Translations under genes and position numbers: made by a program
Notes under the pieces: generated by a model
What the model saw: the letters and a program-made list of their open reading frames with translations, nothing else
What the model was told of the DNA's origin: nothing
Database searches by the model: none
Origin: Bradyrhizobium sp. AZCC 1693
GTDB lineage: Bacteria > Pseudomonadota > Alphaproteobacteria > Rhizobiales > Xanthobacteraceae
NCBI RefSeq assembly: GCF_036924745.1
Contig: NZ_JAZHSD010000001.1
Location: forward strand, 7,191,001 to 7,255,000
Length of the DNA: 64,000 bases
Reading direction: 5' to 3'
Shown: piece after piece, positions 26,696 to 32,975 of the stretch
Numbering within the stretch: position 1 is the first letter of the stretch
How the letters are laid out: every line of letters begins with the position of its first letter

Positions 26696-28090
26696 CTAAT
26701 GCGTCGCCGATGCCGCGGCCGCAACGGCGTCCGCCTCCGCCGCTGCCTTGCTGCTTACGCCGTTGAAGAACGCATTCAGCGTCACCGCCACCAGCGCGCT
26801 GAGCAGGATGCCGGACTCCATGAGCGGGTGCAGGTCGTGCGGCAAGTTCTTGAAGAAGTTGGGTGAAACCAGCGGGATCATGCCGAAGCCAACTGATATC
26901 GCGACCACGAACAGATTGTAGCGGTTGTTCCTGAAATCGACTGAGGTCAGAATCCGCGCGCCGGTGGCCGCCACCATGCCGAACATCACGAGGCCGGCGC
27001 CGCCGAGCACCACCAGCGGCACGGCTTCGACCAGCGCCGCTATCTTGGGCGCCAGCCCGAGCAACAGCAAGATGCCGCCGCCGGCAACCGTGACCCAGCG
27101 CGAACGCACGCCGGTGACGCCGACAAGGCCGACGTTCTGCGAGAACGACGTGTAGGGAAAGGTATTGAACAGCCCGCCCAGCAAGGTGCCGAGGCCGTCG
27201 GCACGAAGGCCGCGGGTCAGCGCATCGCGGCTGACCGTCTTGCCGGTGATGTCGCCAAGCGCCAGGAACATTCCGAGCGATTCGATCATCACGACGATCA
27301 TGACGATGCACATGGTGATGATCGGCACGAGCTGAAATTTCGGCAGCCCGAAATGCAGTGGCAACACGATCGCGACCCAGGGCGCCGCGGCGACCTTCTC
27401 GAAATGCATGACGCCGAGTACGGCCGCGAGGACCGCGCCGGCGACTATGCCGAGCAGAACCGCGACATTGGCGATGAAGCCTGCGCCCCATTTGATCAGG
27501 CCGAGGATTACCAGCAGCACGAACAGCGCAATGCCAAGGCCCTGCAACTGGCCGTAGCCCGGATTTGGGAAAGCGCCCGGCACGCCATCGACCATTTTGG
27601 TCAGGGTGGGCAGGCCGCCGCCGGCCCAGTTGATGCCGACCCGCATCAGGGAAATGCCGATGACAAGGATGATGGTCCCGGTGACAACGGGTGGAAACAG
27701 CGGCAGCAGCCGGCTGACGAAGGGGGCGACCAGGAGCGCGAAGAGCCCGGCGGCTATCACCGAGCCGTAGATGCCGAGCAGGCCGATGTCCGGTGCTGCA
27801 GCCATCGACAGCATCGGGCCTACGGAAGCAAACGTGACGCCCATCATCACCGGCAGCCGGATACCGACCCCCGGAAAGCCGATACATTGCACCAGCGTGG
27901 CAATACCGCAGGCAAACAGGTCCGCGCTGATCAGAAAGGCGACGTCTTCCGGCGGCAGCTTCAGCGCCCGCCCGATGATCAGCGGGACCGCGACCGCGCC
28001 GGCATACATCACAAGCACATGCTGCAGGCCGAGCGCCAGCAATCGCGGCGTCGGCAGGATCTGGTCGACTGGATGGACTTCGCCGCTCAT
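26696..28090 (-). CDS. NCS2-family nucleobase permease, probably xanthine/urate
   Basis: A nucleobase:cation symporter-2 protein of 464 residues with 12-14 membrane segments. The ATG at 28088-28090 has GGGGAG upstream; longer readings to 28333 are out of character. The hallmark segment FSQNVGLVGVTGVRSR fits the QNxGxxxxTG form found in permeases for oxidised purines such as xanthine or urate, rather than the TR form of uracil carriers. It is divergent from the uricase gene, with a sigma-54-like promoter on each strand between them, so import of urate or xanthine is a reasonable inference. Confidence 0.82.
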   Translation of the reverse strand: MSGEVHPVDQILPTPRLLALGLQHVLVMYAGAVAVPLIIGRALKLPPEDVAFLISADLFACGIATLVQCIGFPGVGIRLPVMMGVTFASVGPMLSMAAAPDIGLLGIYGSVIAAGLFALLVAPFVSRLLPLFPPVVTGTIILVIGISLMRVGINWAGGGLPTLTKMVDGVPGAFPNPGYGQLQGLGIALFVLLVILGLIKWGAGFIANVAVLLGIVAGAVLAAVLGVMHFEKVAAAPWVAIVLPLHFGLPKFQLVPIITMCIVMIVVMIESLGMFLALGDITGKTVSRDALTRGLRADGLGTLLGGLFNTFPYTSFSQNVGLVGVTGVRSRWVTVAGGGILLLLGLAPKIAALVEAVPLVVLGGAGLVMFGMVAATGARILTSVDFRNNRYNLFVVAISVGFGMIPLVSPNFFKNLPHDLHPLMESGILLSALVAVTLNAFFNGVSSKAAAEADAVAAAASATH

Positions 28091-28136: not shown

Positions 28137-28152
28137 TACAAGGCTCGTGCCA
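28137..28152 (-). promoter_or_regulatory. sigma-54-like promoter for the nucleobase permease (imperfect)
   Basis: Reading the minus strand: TGGCACG, four bases, TTGTA. The -24 half is exact; the -12 half has T where the consensus TTGCA/T has C. Spacing is exact. It lies 47 bases upstream of the permease ATG and back to back with the uricase promoter, 27 bases away. Confidence 0.5.
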
Positions 28153-28179
28153 GAAGCTCGTCCCCGGAGCCTTGCCCTG

Positions 28180-28195
28180 TGGCACGAAGGTTGCT
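28180..28195 (+). promoter_or_regulatory. sigma-54 (RpoN) promoter for uricase
   Basis: TGGCACG-AAGG-TTGCT, an exact match to the -24/-12 consensus TGGCACG-N4-TTGCW with correct spacing. Transcription would start near 28207, about 50 bases before the uricase ATG. Sigma-54 promoters need an enhancer-binding ATPase such as NtrC, which fits nitrogen control of urate breakdown. Confidence 0.8.
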
Positions 28196-28258
28196 CAATA
28201 TTGAACCATAGCGGGCGGTCGTGATCCCCGCAAATTGCAGGTTGAAGGAGGTCTTCGG

Positions 28259-29101
28259 ATGCCGCTGATCAGGAACAGATATGGGAAGGGCCGCGTCCGG
28301 GTCATGCGGATTCACCGGAACGGCGACCAGCACGAAGTCAGCCAGCTCAGCGTCAAGGCGATGATCGAGGGCGACTTTTCACGTGCCTATACGCATGCCG
28401 ACAATTCCACCTCGGTGGCGACGGATACAATCAAGAACATCGTCAATGTCGTCGCCCGCGAGAACACAGGGCTGTGCACCGAGGAATTCTGCCAGGTGCT
28501 GGCGCAGAGATATCTCGACACCTATCCGCAGATCGCCTCGGTTGCGATTACCGCGCACGAGACGAAATGGAGCCGCCTTAGTTTTGGCGGCAAGCCGCAT
28601 CCGCACAGCTTCGTGCTCGACAGCAACGGCAAGCCGTTCGTCGAAGCCGCCGTCACGCGCGGGGGACCAACGGCACTGACGTCCGGCATCGAAGGCTTTG
28701 CCTTCATGAAGTCGACGCAGTCCGGCTGGGAGAATTATCCCAGGGATCGCTATACCACGCTACCGGAGACCGCCGACCGGATGTGCGCCACCAGCATGGT
28801 GGCGTCCTGGAAATGGTCGGCGATGCCCTCGAATTATCCGGCGGCCAATGCGAAGATCCTCGACACCCTGCTCGAAGTATTCGGCACGACCTACAGCAAG
28901 AGCGTGCAGGACAGCCTGTACCGGATGGGCGAGGCGGCGCTGGCGGCCGTGCCCGAGATTTCGGAAATCAGCATGGCCTGCCCGAACATGCACTTCATCC
29001 CGATGAATCTCTCGGCGTTCGGGCTGGATAACAGCAACGATGTCTTTCTGCCGACCGACGAGCCCCACGGCCAGATTGAGTGCACGGTGGGAAGGGGCTA
29101 A
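28259..29101 (+). CDS. urate oxidase (uricase)
   Basis: Cofactor-free uricase of 280 residues, converting urate and oxygen to 5-hydroxyisourate. The catalytic Lys10 (NRYGKGRV) and Thr57 (NSTSVATDTIKN) fall at the same positions as in the well-studied fungal enzyme. The second tunnelling-fold half ends with ISMACPNMHFIPMNLSAFG, carrying the active-site His. The ATG at 28259 has a strong ribosome site, GAAGGAGG. An exact sigma-54 promoter lies about 65 bases upstream. The allantoate-amidohydrolase-like gene follows 55 bases later. HIU hydrolase and OHCU decarboxylase are not in the window. Confidence 0.93.
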   Translation: MPLIRNRYGKGRVRVMRIHRNGDQHEVSQLSVKAMIEGDFSRAYTHADNSTSVATDTIKNIVNVVARENTGLCTEEFCQVLAQRYLDTYPQIASVAITAHETKWSRLSFGGKPHPHSFVLDSNGKPFVEAAVTRGGPTALTSGIEGFAFMKSTQSGWENYPRDRYTTLPETADRMCATSMVASWKWSAMPSNYPAANAKILDTLLEVFGTTYSKSVQDSLYRMGEAALAAVPEISEISMACPNMHFIPMNLSAFGLDNSNDVFLPTDEPHGQIECTVGRG

Positions 29102-29156
29102 AAGGCACGCCAAAACCTTAGGAAGCGCTGGTCGAAGCGCGCTTCACTGGAACAGC

Positions 29157-30434
29157 ATGCGCGACACAGAGGTGGCCACCGGCGGGACGACACGGTCAGG
29201 GCTCGGCGATGAAATCGTAAGCCGGATCAATCAGCTCGGGACGATTTCCGAGACACCGGAGCATCTGGCGCGGATTTTCCTGTCGCCCGAACACCGCATC
29301 GCGGCCGACCTCATCCTGTCCTGGATGAGAGATGCCGGAATGGCCGCGCATCTCGACGCGATCGGCAATGTGTGCGGCCGCTATGAGGGCGAACGTCCGG
29401 GGTTGCCGTGCCTGATGCTGGGCTCGCATTACGACACGGTGCGCGACGCCGGCAAATGGGACGGGCCGCTCGGGATCATCACCGCGATTGCCTGCGTCGC
29501 CGATCTGAACCGGCGCGGCGTGCGGTTGCCCTTTGCGATCGAGATCGTCGGCTTCGCCGACGAGGAGGGCGTGCGGTTTTCCTCCACGCTGCTCGGCAGC
29601 CGGGCGGTCGCCGGCACTTTTGACGAAAGCGTGCTCAATGCGCGAGATGCGAACGGCCTCACCATGCGCGAGGCGATGGTGCAGTTCGGGCTCGATCCCG
29701 ATCACATCGGCGCGGCGGCGCGGACGCGCCGCGAACTGCATGCCTATGTCGAACTCCACATCGAGCAGGGACCGGTGCTGGAGCAACAGAACCTTCCCGT
29801 CGGCGTGGTGACGGCAATATCAGGCGCCACGCGGCTGGCAGCGAACCTCTCCGGCATGGCCGGGCACGCCGGCACGGTACCGATGGCGATGCGGCGCGAC
29901 GCGCTGGCCGGCGCCGCCGAATGCATCGTGGCGGTCGAGCAATTCTGCAAGGCCGATAGTGCCGGACTGGTAGGCACCGTCGGTGCCATCACTGCGCTTC
30001 CGGGTGCGACCAACGTCATTCCGGGACGGGTCTCGTTTACGCTGGATATTCGCGCGCCAACCGACGCCCACCGCAACCTCGCCGTCGCGGAGATTGTGCG
30101 GCGGATCGAGGCGATCGCGAAACGGCGTGAACTCTCGCTTCAGATCGACGTCACCCACGAAAACCGTACCGTGCCCTGCGCACCATGGCTGAAAGCGCAG
30201 GTCTCCGAAGCCGTTGCAGCCGAAAATTATCCCGCGTTCGAACTGCCGAGCGGGGCAGGGCATGACGGCATGGCCATGATCGATGTGGCCGACGTCGCCA
30301 TGCTGTTCGTGCGCTGCCGCGGCGGCATCAGCCATAACCCGGCCGAGCATGTCGAACTCGCCGACGCCGACGCCGGCGCGCGCGTGCTGTTGCGATTCAT
30401 CGAGAATTTTAAGCCACGACTGCCCAGTTCGTGA
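29157..30434 (+). CDS. allantoate amidohydrolase-like Zn-dependent hydrolase (M20 family)
   Basis: A dinuclear-metal amidohydrolase of 425 residues from the AllC/beta-ureidopropionase/N-carbamoyl-amino-acid hydrolase group. Metal-ligand motifs are LGSHYDTV, GKWDGPLG, FADEEGVRF and VELHIEQGPVLE, and a late PSGAGHDGMAM carries the substrate-binding His. The dimerisation domain (SGMAGHAGTVPM...RVSFTLDIRAP) is present. Immediately downstream of uricase, allantoate is the natural substrate, releasing ammonia and ureidoglycine or ureidoglycolate; the family also includes enzymes for other carbamoyl compounds. Confidence 0.85.
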   Translation: MRDTEVATGGTTRSGLGDEIVSRINQLGTISETPEHLARIFLSPEHRIAADLILSWMRDAGMAAHLDAIGNVCGRYEGERPGLPCLMLGSHYDTVRDAGKWDGPLGIITAIACVADLNRRGVRLPFAIEIVGFADEEGVRFSSTLLGSRAVAGTFDESVLNARDANGLTMREAMVQFGLDPDHIGAAARTRRELHAYVELHIEQGPVLEQQNLPVGVVTAISGATRLAANLSGMAGHAGTVPMAMRRDALAGAAECIVAVEQFCKADSAGLVGTVGAITALPGATNVIPGRVSFTLDIRAPTDAHRNLAVAEIVRRIEAIAKRRELSLQIDVTHENRTVPCAPWLKAQVSEAVAAENYPAFELPSGAGHDGMAMIDVADVAMLFVRCRGGISHNPAEHVELADADAGARVLLRFIENFKPRLPSS

Positions 30435-30539
30435 GCAGTTGCACGTCCGGCCAGCGCCTGAGTGAGAGCGGATTAGCGCAACATCAGCAGTCAACGAATT
30501 GAAACAACGATCGATTTCGTTCTCGCCGGCCGCCTGACG

Positions 30540-30555
30540 CCATTGTACACAATGG
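30540..30555. promoter_or_regulatory. CCATTGT-AC-ACAATGG palindrome, candidate GntR-type operator
   Basis: A 16-bp inverted repeat with two 7-bp perfect arms. The TTGTACACAA core resembles operators of GntR/FadR-type regulators. Its last three bases are part of the -24 element of the adjacent sigma-54 promoter, so a bound protein would block that promoter. Confidence 0.5.
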
Positions 30556-30568
30556 CACGACCTTTGCT
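30553..30568 (+). promoter_or_regulatory. sigma-54 (RpoN) promoter for the cysteine hydrolase-permease pair
   Basis: TGGCACG-ACCT-TTGCT, again an exact -24/-12 match and identical to the uricase promoter outside the four spacer bases. It lies 42 bases upstream of the hydrolase ATG; transcription would start near 30580. Confidence 0.8.
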
Positions 30569-30609: not shown

Positions 30610-31314
30610 ATGGCGAACTCAGCAAAGCTCAGAGCGGAGCCGGAGCCGATCGCGCTCGATTGGCCAGCGACTGCGCTTCTCATCATCGACATGCAGCGCG
30701 ATTTCATGGAGCCGGGCGGTTTTGGCGAGACGCTCGGCAATGACGTCAGCCAGCTCGCGCGGGCGGTGAAGCCGATCGCAGCGATGCTGGCTGTGGCGCG
30801 CGCGGCCGGCATGCTGGTCGTGCACACCCGCGAAGGCCATCTGCCCGATCTCTCCGACGCGCCGCCGGCCAAGGTCGAACGCGGCGCGCCGTCTTTGCGC
30901 ATCGGCGATCCCGGGCCGATGGGGCGTATTCTCATTCGCGGCGAGGCTGGCCACGACATCATTCCCGAATTGTATCCGCTCGACAGCGAGATCGTGATCG
31001 ACAAGCCGGGGAAGGGCGCCTTCTACGCCACCGAGCTCGGCGACGTGCTGCAGCGCTACGGCATCGAGAATTTGCTGGTCTGCGGCGTCACCACCGAGGT
31101 CTGCGTCAACACCACGGTGCGCGAAGCCAATGACCGCGGCTATCGCTGCGTGGTGCTGGCTGATGGCTGCGCATCCTATTTTCCCGAATTTCACGAGATG
31201 GGCCTGAAGATGATCAAGGCCCAGGGCGGCATTTTTGGCTGGGTCTCCGACTCGGCCGCGGTGCTGGAGGCGCTTTCATTGGAGATTCCAAGAACGGCAG
31301 CGGCGGGGGTATAA
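30610..31314 (+). CDS. isochorismatase-like cysteine hydrolase, biuret/triuret hydrolase-like
   Basis: A cytosolic amidase of 234 residues in the isochorismatase-like superfamily. The catalytic triad is visible as Asp27 (LIIDMQRDF), Lys132 ([10 protein letters not shown]) and Cys165 ([18 protein letters not shown]). The segments [27 protein letters not shown] and HDIIPELYP closely follow, from memory, the biuret hydrolase BiuH of Rhizobium and its triuret-hydrolase relatives, and differ from RutB ureidoacrylate hydrolases. Placed after uricase and the amidohydrolase and led by its own sigma-54 promoter, it probably frees ammonia from a ureide. The exact substrate is inference. Confidence 0.8.
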
Positions 31315-31316
31315 CG

Positions 31317-32975
31317 ATGAGCACGAGCACGACGGGGGCATCAGGCACATCCACTTTCAAGCCGGCCTTGTGGACGCCGGGCGACTGGAACGCGCTGTTC
31401 GGCTTCGGCACCAACATCCTCGTCAACATGCTGGTACTGACCGGACTGTTGCGCTTCGTGCTGAAGATGCCTGACTCACTCGTGTTCGGCCGCATCCTGC
31501 CGTCGCTCGGCCTGATGATGTGCCTCTCCACCTTCTACTATGCGTATCTCGCTTACAAATTGGCGCAGAAGACCGGCCGCAGCGACGTCTGCGCGCTGCC
31601 GTCGGGCGTCAGCGTGCCGCACATGTTCATCGTCACCTTCGTGATCATGCTGCCGATCACGCTTAGGACCGGCGACCCCATCAAGGGCTGGTCGGCCGGC
31701 CTCGTCTGGGTATTCTTCCAGAGCTTTATTCTGATGATCGGCGGCTTCATCGCGCCATACATCAGAAAGATCACCCCACGCGCGGCGCTGCTCGGCACGC
31801 TCGCCGGTGTCTCCGTCACCTTCATTTCGATGCGCCCGGCGCTGGAAATGTACATGACGCCCCAGATCGGGCTGGTGTGTTTTGCCATCATCCTGGTGAG
31901 CTGGTTCGGCGGCGTGAAGTATTGGCGGGGCATGCCTGCCGGCCTCGTCGCCATTGCGGCCGGCATGATCATCGCGTGGGGATCGAACCTGTTCGGCCTC
32001 GGGCTGGGCGGCCTGAGCCTGAAGGGCGTCGCCGACGCCTTTGCCAATTTCGGCTTCTCGGTGCCGTTGCCGGCCTTCGGCGACGTTTTCTCCGGCTTTG
32101 AATTCCTCGGCATCATTCTCGTGACCGCGATCCCGTTCGGTATCTACGACCTCGTCGAGGCCATGGACAATGTCGAAAGCGCGGAAGCGGCCGGCGACGA
32201 ATATCCGACCACGCGCGTGCTTACCGCCGACGGCGTCGTCAGCCTGATCGGCTGCCTGATGGGTAATCCCTTCATCAACGCGGTCTATATCGGCCATCCC
32301 GGCTGGAAGGCGATGGGCGGGCGGATCGGTTATTCGGCGGCGACCGGCATCATGGTGGTGCTGCTGTCGTGGTTCGGCATCATCTCGGTGTTGCTGGCGC
32401 TGGTGCCCGTCGTCGCGATCTCGCCGATCCTGCTTTATATCGGCATGCTGATCGGCGCGCAGGCGTTCCAGGCCACGCCAGTCAAGCACGCGCCCGCGAT
32501 CGTGTTGGCTCTGACGCCGCATCTCGCGGCTTGGGCAAAATTGCAGATCGACACCATGCTTGCTTCAACAATGTCGGCCGCCCAGACGGTCGGCGGTCTC
32601 GCCGCCGACAAGGTCGATGCCGTCAAGACCGCAGCCATCGCCGCGCTGCCGCAGCAGGGCGTGCTCTATCACGGGCTCGAAGTAATGGGCGGCGGCTCGA
32701 TCCTCGCCGGCCTTGTGCTGGGCGCGATCGGCGTGTTCGTGATCGAGCGCGACTTTCTCAAGGCCTCGGCCTTCGCGCTGGCCGGTGCCGTCATGACCTA
32801 TTTCGGCTTCATGCACGGCGAAGCCGTCGGCATCGGCGGCGGCCTCGGCGTCACGCCGGGCGTGGCGCTGGCTTACCTGGTGATGGCGGGCGGCCTGTAT
32901 GCCCTGTCGAGGACGAGTCCAAGCGCGAGCTACAGTTCGCATTCGGATATACCGATTGCGGCACCGGCAGAGTAG
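31317..32975 (+). CDS. xanthine/uracil/vitamin C permease-like transporter
   Basis: A membrane protein of 552 residues with about 12-13 helices, related to the AzgA-like branch of the nucleobase permease superfamily. The start is two bases after the hydrolase stop, so the two genes form an operon under the sigma-54 promoter. It has an unusual hydrophilic, Ala-rich insertion at about residues 405-440 (AAWAKLQIDTMLASTMSAAQTVGGLAADKVDAVKTAAIA) between two C-terminal helices. Probable cargo is the hydrolase substrate or a related purine or ureide; not demonstrated. Confidence 0.78.
   Translation: MSTSTTGASGTSTFKPALWTPGDWNALFGFGTNILVNMLVLTGLLRFVLKMPDSLVFGRILPSLGLMMCLSTFYYAYLAYKLAQKTGRSDVCALPSGVSVPHMFIVTFVIMLPITLRTGDPIKGWSAGLVWVFFQSFILMIGGFIAPYIRKITPRAALLGTLAGVSVTFISMRPALEMYMTPQIGLVCFAIILVSWFGGVKYWRGMPAGLVAIAAGMIIAWGSNLFGLGLGGLSLKGVADAFANFGFSVPLPAFGDVFSGFEFLGIILVTAIPFGIYDLVEAMDNVESAEAAGDEYPTTRVLTADGVVSLIGCLMGNPFINAVYIGHPGWKAMGGRIGYSAATGIMVVLLSWFGIISVLLALVPVVAISPILLYIGMLIGAQAFQATPVKHAPAIVLALTPHLAAWAKLQIDTMLASTMSAAQTVGGLAADKVDAVKTAAIAALPQQGVLYHGLEVMGGGSILAGLVLGAIGVFVIERDFLKASAFALAGAVMTYFGFMHGEAVGIGGGLGVTPGVALAYLVMAGGLYALSRTSPSASYSSHSDIPIAAPAE

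Follow-up and report, generated by a model that had tools for sequence, protein, structure and literature searches.

A palindrome fused to the -24 box of a sigma-54 promoter points to a probable triuret regulatory circuit in Bradyrhizobium

Repression at a sigma-54 promoter of nitrogen-yielding catabolism is known from the hutU gene of Pseudomonas, where the footprint of HutC, a GntR-family protein, overlaps the sigma-54 site and NtrC also activates under nitrogen starvation (PMC12977541). Triuret is a rare product of urate oxidation. Its hydrolase, TrtA, is known from Herbaspirillum BH-1, where trtA is clustered with biuH and the carboxybiuret product feeds AtzF; the consulted sections of that account describe no regulation, and its authors suggest urate oxidation as the source of triuret in plants (PMC7948467). 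In Bradyrhizobium sp. DOA9, an 'isochorismatase' gene (BRADOA9_v1_41390) with the site TGGCACGGCGCTTGC at -37 was down in an rpoN mutant (PMC13207237). Here we describe a 64,000-nucleotide stretch from a bacterium of soil and root-nodule type, Bradyrhizobium sp. AZCC 1693 (contig NZ_JAZHSD010000001.1, positions 7,191,001 to 7,255,000; hereafter the window, numbered from its first letter), in which three sigma-54 sites precede a uricase gene, a divergent xanthine permease gene, and a gene pair consisting of a probable trtA and a permease of no recognised family. The promoter of this pair is fused to a palindrome that recurs before the distant allophanate hydrolase gene atzF, suggesting a small and hitherto unrecognised regulatory circuit.

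The palindrome GCCATTGTACACAATGGC (30539..30556, unstranded), a candidate GntR operator, was overlooked in the original prediction and is the main feature of this promoter. Its right arm includes the TGGC of the -24 box of the sigma-54 promoter TGGCACGACCTTTGCT (30553..30568, plus strand), which has the exact pattern TGGCACG-N4-TTGCT. In eight aligned trtA loci (the window and seven orthologues), the 16-bp palindrome core CCATTGTACACAATGG was invariant in 8/8, and TGGCA[CT]G and TTGCTT stood at fixed spacing in 8/8. Since the left arm falls beyond these boxes, the palindrome is not accounted for by the promoter on its own. ATTGTACACAAT was found at one other place only in the genome, directly before atzF (allophanate hydrolase, TIGR02713 809 bits, cut-off 511), and this copy likewise overlaps a sigma-54 site, TGGCACATCGCTTGCT. 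The hydrolase–permease pair had been taken as part of a purine/ureide block; its promoter type is shared with the distant atzF.

The composite of palindrome and promoter, TTGTNNACAATGGCAN6TTGC, was present in 176/195 genomes of the genus, with 0 matches for the reversed control. Copies of the window and of its own genome (L004, L005, L069, L071, L115, and L124) were removed before the order-wide count and the count of distinct copies given below, and identical stretches were counted once. Among the 30 genus loci listed, the composite precedes trtA (26) or atzF (4). Across the order it was found in 15/397 genomes; 14 of these belong to the family of the window, and in the remaining one (L105), from outside it, the composite precedes neither gene. 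The 72 distinct copies comprise 47 before trtA, 24 before atzF, and 1 unclassified from another family; all 71 distinct copies examined within the family precede trtA or atzF. Most letters are fixed by the search pattern and their invariance is by construction; the palindrome spacer was left free, and it was AC in 71/71 copies. For genomes with no exact match before atzF, 18 of 20 stretches had a usable atzF upstream region. A variant with one changed outer base, TGTACACAATGGCA, was seen in 13 of these 18, one region was degenerate, and four had no palindrome; in those four the composite stands before trtA. In four genomes trtA and atzF appear to form a single operon: in three of them trtA, the permease gene, and atzF follow one composite without interruption, and in the remaining one trtA and atzF do so. 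As the composite precedes trtA and atzF both when they are contiguous and when they are separate, the same element accompanies the pathway whether its genes are joined or split.

Such palindromes can serve as binding sites for GntR proteins of the FCD type. A gene coding for a protein with GntR and FCD domains lies convergent to atzF, 2.76 Mb from the window trtA, and its connection to the palindrome is one of linkage. An orthologue scoring above 400 bits was detected in 36/40 genomes searched, and the four genomes without it were also without TrtA. At 20/20 GntR loci examined among these 36 genomes, the gene adjoins atzF. This protein is our candidate for the repressor that would bind the palindrome and respond to a pathway inducer.

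Upstream of the fused element lies a candidate NtrC enhancer, TGCCCAGTTCGTGAGCA (30421..30437, unstranded), an exact match to TGCNCN7GNGCA located 132 bp 5' of TGGCA and overlapping the end of the upstream gene. A weaker enhancer-like sequence, TGCACGTCCGGCCAGCG (30440..30456, unstranded), stands at -113 with two mismatches. The promoters were first scored with an E. coli-like NtrC consensus, which gave 0.53 of trtA promoters against a shuffle mean of 0.24. The motif TGCNCN7GNGCA was read from the promoter of a PII gene and ammonium transporter and was chosen after this first result was seen. Within one mismatch it occurred in 26/47 trtA promoters (50 shuffles: mean 6.8, maximum 14) and in 18/24 atzF promoters (50 shuffles: mean 3.3, maximum 8), and its commonest position was -132 for trtA and atzF alike. 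These counts lend support, and no proof, to a predicted action of NtrC. Induction via NtrC, as first proposed for all three window promoters, is thus supported by the enhancer motif for trtA and, across the genus though not at the own-genome copy, for atzF; it is not supported for uricase and its divergent permease, as described below. A separate observation concerns the ammonium transporter locus itself, where the enhancer palindrome TGCCCACGATTTGGGCA lies 121 bp 5' of TGGCACGGCATTTGAT (L128:3535-3671), before a PII-type gene (112 aa, recognised from its start) and the second ammonium transporter.

The reading that we consider probable is a triuret regulon with AND logic, in which activation by NtrC and sigma-54 and repression by GntR would meet at the fused operator and promoter. 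By occupying TTGTACACAA over the -24 box, the atzF-linked GntR-FCD protein would keep sigma-54 RNA polymerase out, and NtrC at -132 would activate the trtA promoter under nitrogen shortage. Both nitrogen limitation and a pathway inducer would thus be required for transcription. The fused promoter would drive trtA together with the permease gene, a second composite copy would drive atzF, and uricase and the xanthine permease would have divergent sigma-54 promoters of their own. Middle steps in the conversion of triuret to carboxybiuret, allophanate, and ammonia may be supplied by a further gene set next to gntR, which by family could act on oxalurate instead. HutC at the hutU promoter is the nearest known parallel in logic. 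The likeness lies in a GntR-family repressor site, predicted here, on a sigma-54 site for nitrogen-yielding catabolism (PMC12977541). HutC belongs to the HutC subfamily, recognises TGTA-N2-TACA, and has urocanate as effector (PMC12977541), whereas the candidate here is of FCD type, the palindrome is TTGT-AC-ACAA, and the pathway is that of triuret; in a further difference from hutU, some bases of the palindrome are also part of the -24 box, in a fixed geometry. With an FCD domain and no TGTA-N2-TACA, the present system would work like HutC and would not be a member of its group.

The hydrolase gene (30610..31314, plus strand) looks like that of a triuret hydrolase by sequence, and triuret is its predicted substrate. 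Its best Protein Data Bank (PDB) match is the TrtA structure 6xix with 286 bits, compared with 234 bits for BiuH 6azo (PMC7948467, PMC5806882). Of the TrtA positions checked, 13/13 matched in the window hydrolase and were invariant in 43/43 orthologues. They include the triad D24/K129/C162 and the TrtA-specific residues F35, N41, E160, and I205, residues described in PMC7948467, the last four as differing between TrtA and BiuH. The active-site and TrtA-specific residues, and a carboxybiuret product that would feed AtzF, are shared with the Herbaspirillum enzyme (PMC7948467); trtA is paired here with an unrecognised permease gene and in some genomes with atzF, and not with biuH as in Herbaspirillum. 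The partner permease (31317..32975, plus strand), a membrane-type protein of 552 aa, has its gene placed between those of trtA and atzF in three genomes and is a likely transporter of the pathway. Searches of Pfam, NCBIfam, and the PDB, carried up to E = 10, found nothing similar, and a profile comparison put the probability of a relation to the xanthine permease at 2.7%; its predicted structure was discarded for a mean pLDDT of 32.5. The genome, like every control genome, gave no match to cyanuric acid hydrolase (PF09663).

The DOA9 gene BRADOA9_v1_41390 is probably a trtA orthologue, as judged from its family name, the 15-mer, and the distance, since the 15-mer TGGCACGGCGCTTGC occurs at 12 trtA loci and stands at exactly -37 in three of them. 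The DOA9 study reads the isochorismatase as an infection-like function (PMC13207237), and a trtA identity would offer an alternative reading of this published RpoN target. The words 'allophanate' and 'uricase' are absent from the main text of that study, and none of the open-access papers searched had both triuret and Bradyrhizobium.

The gene set next to gntR comprises an ABC importer, an AtzE-family amidohydrolase, an HpxZ-family protein, and GntR. On the gntR strand and 5' of that gene lie the HpxZ-family gene, the AtzE-family gene, and then the ABC transporter genes; atzE, the HpxZ-family gene, and gntR abut. The HpxZ-family protein (L072:7937-8335, minus strand) scored 204 bits against a cut-off of 135. 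A sigma-54 site within one mismatch was found in 11/11 loci of this set, and the enhancer motif lay 133-134 bp upstream in 5/11. Similarly, the DOA9 RpoNc regulon lists an ABC binding protein of peptide type, with TGGCACGAACCTTGC located at -43 (PMC13207237). At one locus (L169:5984-5999, minus strand) this conserved site reads TGGCACAAACCTTGCG, with G as its last position, and stands before ABC importer genes running towards atzE, the HpxZ-family gene, and gntR. We take the AtzE and HpxZ families to have roles in carboxybiuret or oxalurate breakdown.

The sigma-54 sites themselves were as originally described. Exact TGGCACG-N4-TTGCT sequences are present at 28180-28195 and 30553-30568, and the minus-strand site at 28137-28152, TGGCACGAGCCTTGTA, differs by one change from TTGCA and by two from TTGCT. 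Measured against the sigma-54 consensus TGGCAYR-N4-TTGCW, with GG and GC 10 bp apart, the first two are exact and the site at 28137 has GT for GC at -12; allowing at most one mismatch and keeping GG, these three are the only matches in the window. The genome (7.61 Mb) has 6 exact copies of TGGCACG-N4-TTGCW, with 0 for the reversed pattern, and two of the six sit 2.4 kb apart in the window. A first-order Markov model of the window gave a chance expectation of 0.011 per window for TGGCACG-N4-TTGCT, and under a first-order Markov model TGGCACG-N4-TTGCW was expected 0.024 times per window and about 2.9 times per genome. The genome total, only about twice chance, is weak evidence by itself, so that position and conservation carry the sigma-54 claim. 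Conservation at orthologous genes is convincing and supports the assignment of sigma-54 promoters well. The genome encodes one RpoN and has nine strong matches to enhancer-binding proteins, including NtrC and NtrX; three more PF00158 matches of about 26 bits are above the Pfam cut-off. We regard the three sites as real sigma-54 promoters, with their dependence on sigma-54 in AZCC 1693 predicted.

Conservation was clearest at uricase. The gene (28259..29101, plus strand; factor-independent urate hydroxylase, TIGR03383 304 bits, cut-off 168) is preceded by the promoter TGGCACGAAGGTTGCT (28180..28195, plus strand), from which a transcription start is expected near 28205. In 43 uricase loci from named genomes, [TC]GGCA[CT][GA]-N4-TTGCT was found 5' of uricase in 40, about 70 to 97 bases before the gene, and the exact TGGCACG-N4-TTGCW in 30; the three loci without a site were two Ancylobacter and one Beijerinckia. 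The divergent gene (26696..28090, minus strand) codes for a xanthine permease of PbuX type (NCS2; TIGR03173 526 bits, cut-off 414), and its promoter TGGCACGAGCCTTGTA (28137..28152, minus strand) has the form TGGCACG-N4-TTGTA. This form, with varying spacer, is kept in 24/26 loci with the divergent permease, one of the misses having a three-base spacer, so that TTGTA is a maintained -12 box and no decayed copy. The PII/ammonium-transporter promoter TGGCACGGCATTTGAT also has a -12 box with no GC (TTGAT). In the permease-bearing loci, 12-55 bp separate the two -24 boxes. Downstream of uricase lies a gene for an allantoate amidohydrolase-like M20 hydrolase (29157..30434, plus strand; NF006775 575 bits, cut-off 479). 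The proposed compact purine/ureide block is borne out for the xanthine permease, uricase, and this gene, and not for the TrtA-like hydrolase and its partner.

An enhancer was searched for around 41 uricase promoters including that of the window, in 560 bp of upstream and 660 bp of downstream sequence, or less where a locus ended earlier. In the window, no TGCNCN7GNGCA within one mismatch was found in 560 bp upstream of the uricase and permease promoters. Upstream matches within one mismatch were scattered in 9/41 promoters, with no position common to more than two and a single exact match (L032, -87). A match inside the uricase gene was seen at +310 in the window and at +303 to +328 in 9/41. 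A scan of the permease and uricase genes for synonymous-site constraint, as a sign of a hidden enhancer, placed the most constrained stretches away from the promoters. NtrC control of these two promoters is not supported. Around the uricase promoter (window 28171-28203), CTTGCC just 5' of the -24 box was seen in many Bradyrhizobium loci and not in the aligned Tardiphaga, and some members of the genus have CAATATTG after the -12 box.

Several observations weigh against the triuret regulon with combined NtrC and GntR control. For the repressor, two genomes (G006 and G152) keep GntR without TrtA, a fragmented one (G175) has GntR and only a BiuH-like match for TrtA, and no copy of TTGTNNACAA was found at the gene set next to gntR or before gntR. 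For the activator, the E. coli-like consensus gave no excess at atzF (0.18 against a shuffle value of 0.20), the closest enhancer match of the own-genome atzF promoter has three mismatches, and the motif within one mismatch is missing from 21/47 trtA and 6/24 atzF promoters; moreover, the loci are related, so the enhancer counts are not independent. Nine of the 12 trtA loci with the DOA9 15-mer have distances other than -37, and the 15-mer also stands before another DOA9 gene (PMC13207237). The AtzE- and HpxZ-family genes fit oxalurate as well as carboxybiuret breakdown. Repressor binding, the inducer, NtrC action, the substrates, co-transcription, and sigma-54 dependence in the strain enter this reading as predictions. 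If the promoters were three ordinary NtrC/sigma-54 promoters for nitrogen limitation, with the palindrome incidental or a minor modulator, the conserved -24 and -12 boxes, the encoded NtrC and RpoN, and the enhancer motif at trtA and at the atzF of other genomes would all be accounted for. That explanation is distinctly unlikely in view of a palindrome core which is invariant in all eight trtA promoters, recurs before atzF, and extends its left arm beyond the promoter boxes, and of a window uricase with no upstream enhancer motif. It is also unlikely that the composite is real and its palindrome is read by another protein, either the MarR-family protein encoded upstream of atzF or another GntR paralogue. 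Next to atzF, many genomes including the own one have a MarR gene, which counts against our candidate, and the own genome has 26 GntR-type matches; however, no MarR was seen in the stretch examined at seven loci that carry the composite or the one-base variant of it (L149, L151, L155, L157, L170, L172, and L173), and it is the GntR-FCD gene that adjoins atzF at every GntR locus examined.

As for the substrate, the hydrolase could be BiuH and the regulon one for biuret from fertiliser or triazines, with allophanate hydrolase common to both pathways. The NCBIfam BiuH model does match the hydrolase at 260 bits, but this is below its cut-off of 370, the TrtA structure scores higher, and the four positions that differ between TrtA and BiuH are of TrtA type in all 43 orthologues. 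A separate homologue at 2.05 Mb (L189:1504-2115, genome 2053304), 54% identical to TrtA, has the BiuH-type residues, and no sigma-54 site within one mismatch was found in the stretch examined around it. A BiuH identity was rejected on these grounds, and we give this explanation very little probability. That the sigma-54-like sites are chance matches is scarcely credible: six genome copies against 2.9 expected, two of the others lying inside reading frames, would allow it, yet Bradyrhizobium and Tardiphaga share conserved boxes with variable spacers before corresponding genes, and an rpoN effect is reported for the presumed trtA orthologue (PMC13207237).

A wider form of the triuret regulon, which we put forward tentatively and hold to be doubtful as a whole, would be a dedicated Bradyrhizobium system of TrtA, a new permease family, AtzE/AtzF-type enzymes, and a GntR sensor, with an AND gate in the -24 box and, in some lineages, a place beside uricase. 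On this view the system would exist because urate oxidised in and around plants yields triuret, and it would recover that nitrogen. The window trtA starts about 1.5 kb past the end of uricase, and trtA was found within the stretch examined around uricase, which was truncated at some loci, in at least 7/43 loci, all of them among the closest relatives (uricase 90-92% identical). This neighbourhood is suggestive and not general. If the triuret regulon is true, genes called 'isochorismatase' and an unnamed permease become a testable triuret-salvage regulon throughout an important group of symbionts of plants, and the promoter would show clearly how an operator of repressor type can be fused to the -24 box of a sigma-54 promoter. 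A nitrogen-controlled trt regulon beside uricase in some genomes would make the urate-oxidation origin of triuret directly testable, and an oxalurate role of the gene set next to gntR would be another ureide link.

The other four genome copies of TGGCACG-N4-TTGCW comprise two within reading frames, one before a glutaminase gene, and one after a gene for an enhancer-binding protein. The exact site TGGCACGGGGATTGCT (L065:3999-4014, genome 1302998, minus strand) stands just 5' of a gene for a glutaminase that also has STAS and cyclic-nucleotide-binding domains, and no good NtrC-type enhancer was seen in the 330 bp upstream of this promoter. The other exact site (L063:4292-4307, genome 2012791) lies between a gene for a response-regulator enhancer-binding protein and an open reading frame of 242 aa with no Pfam match.

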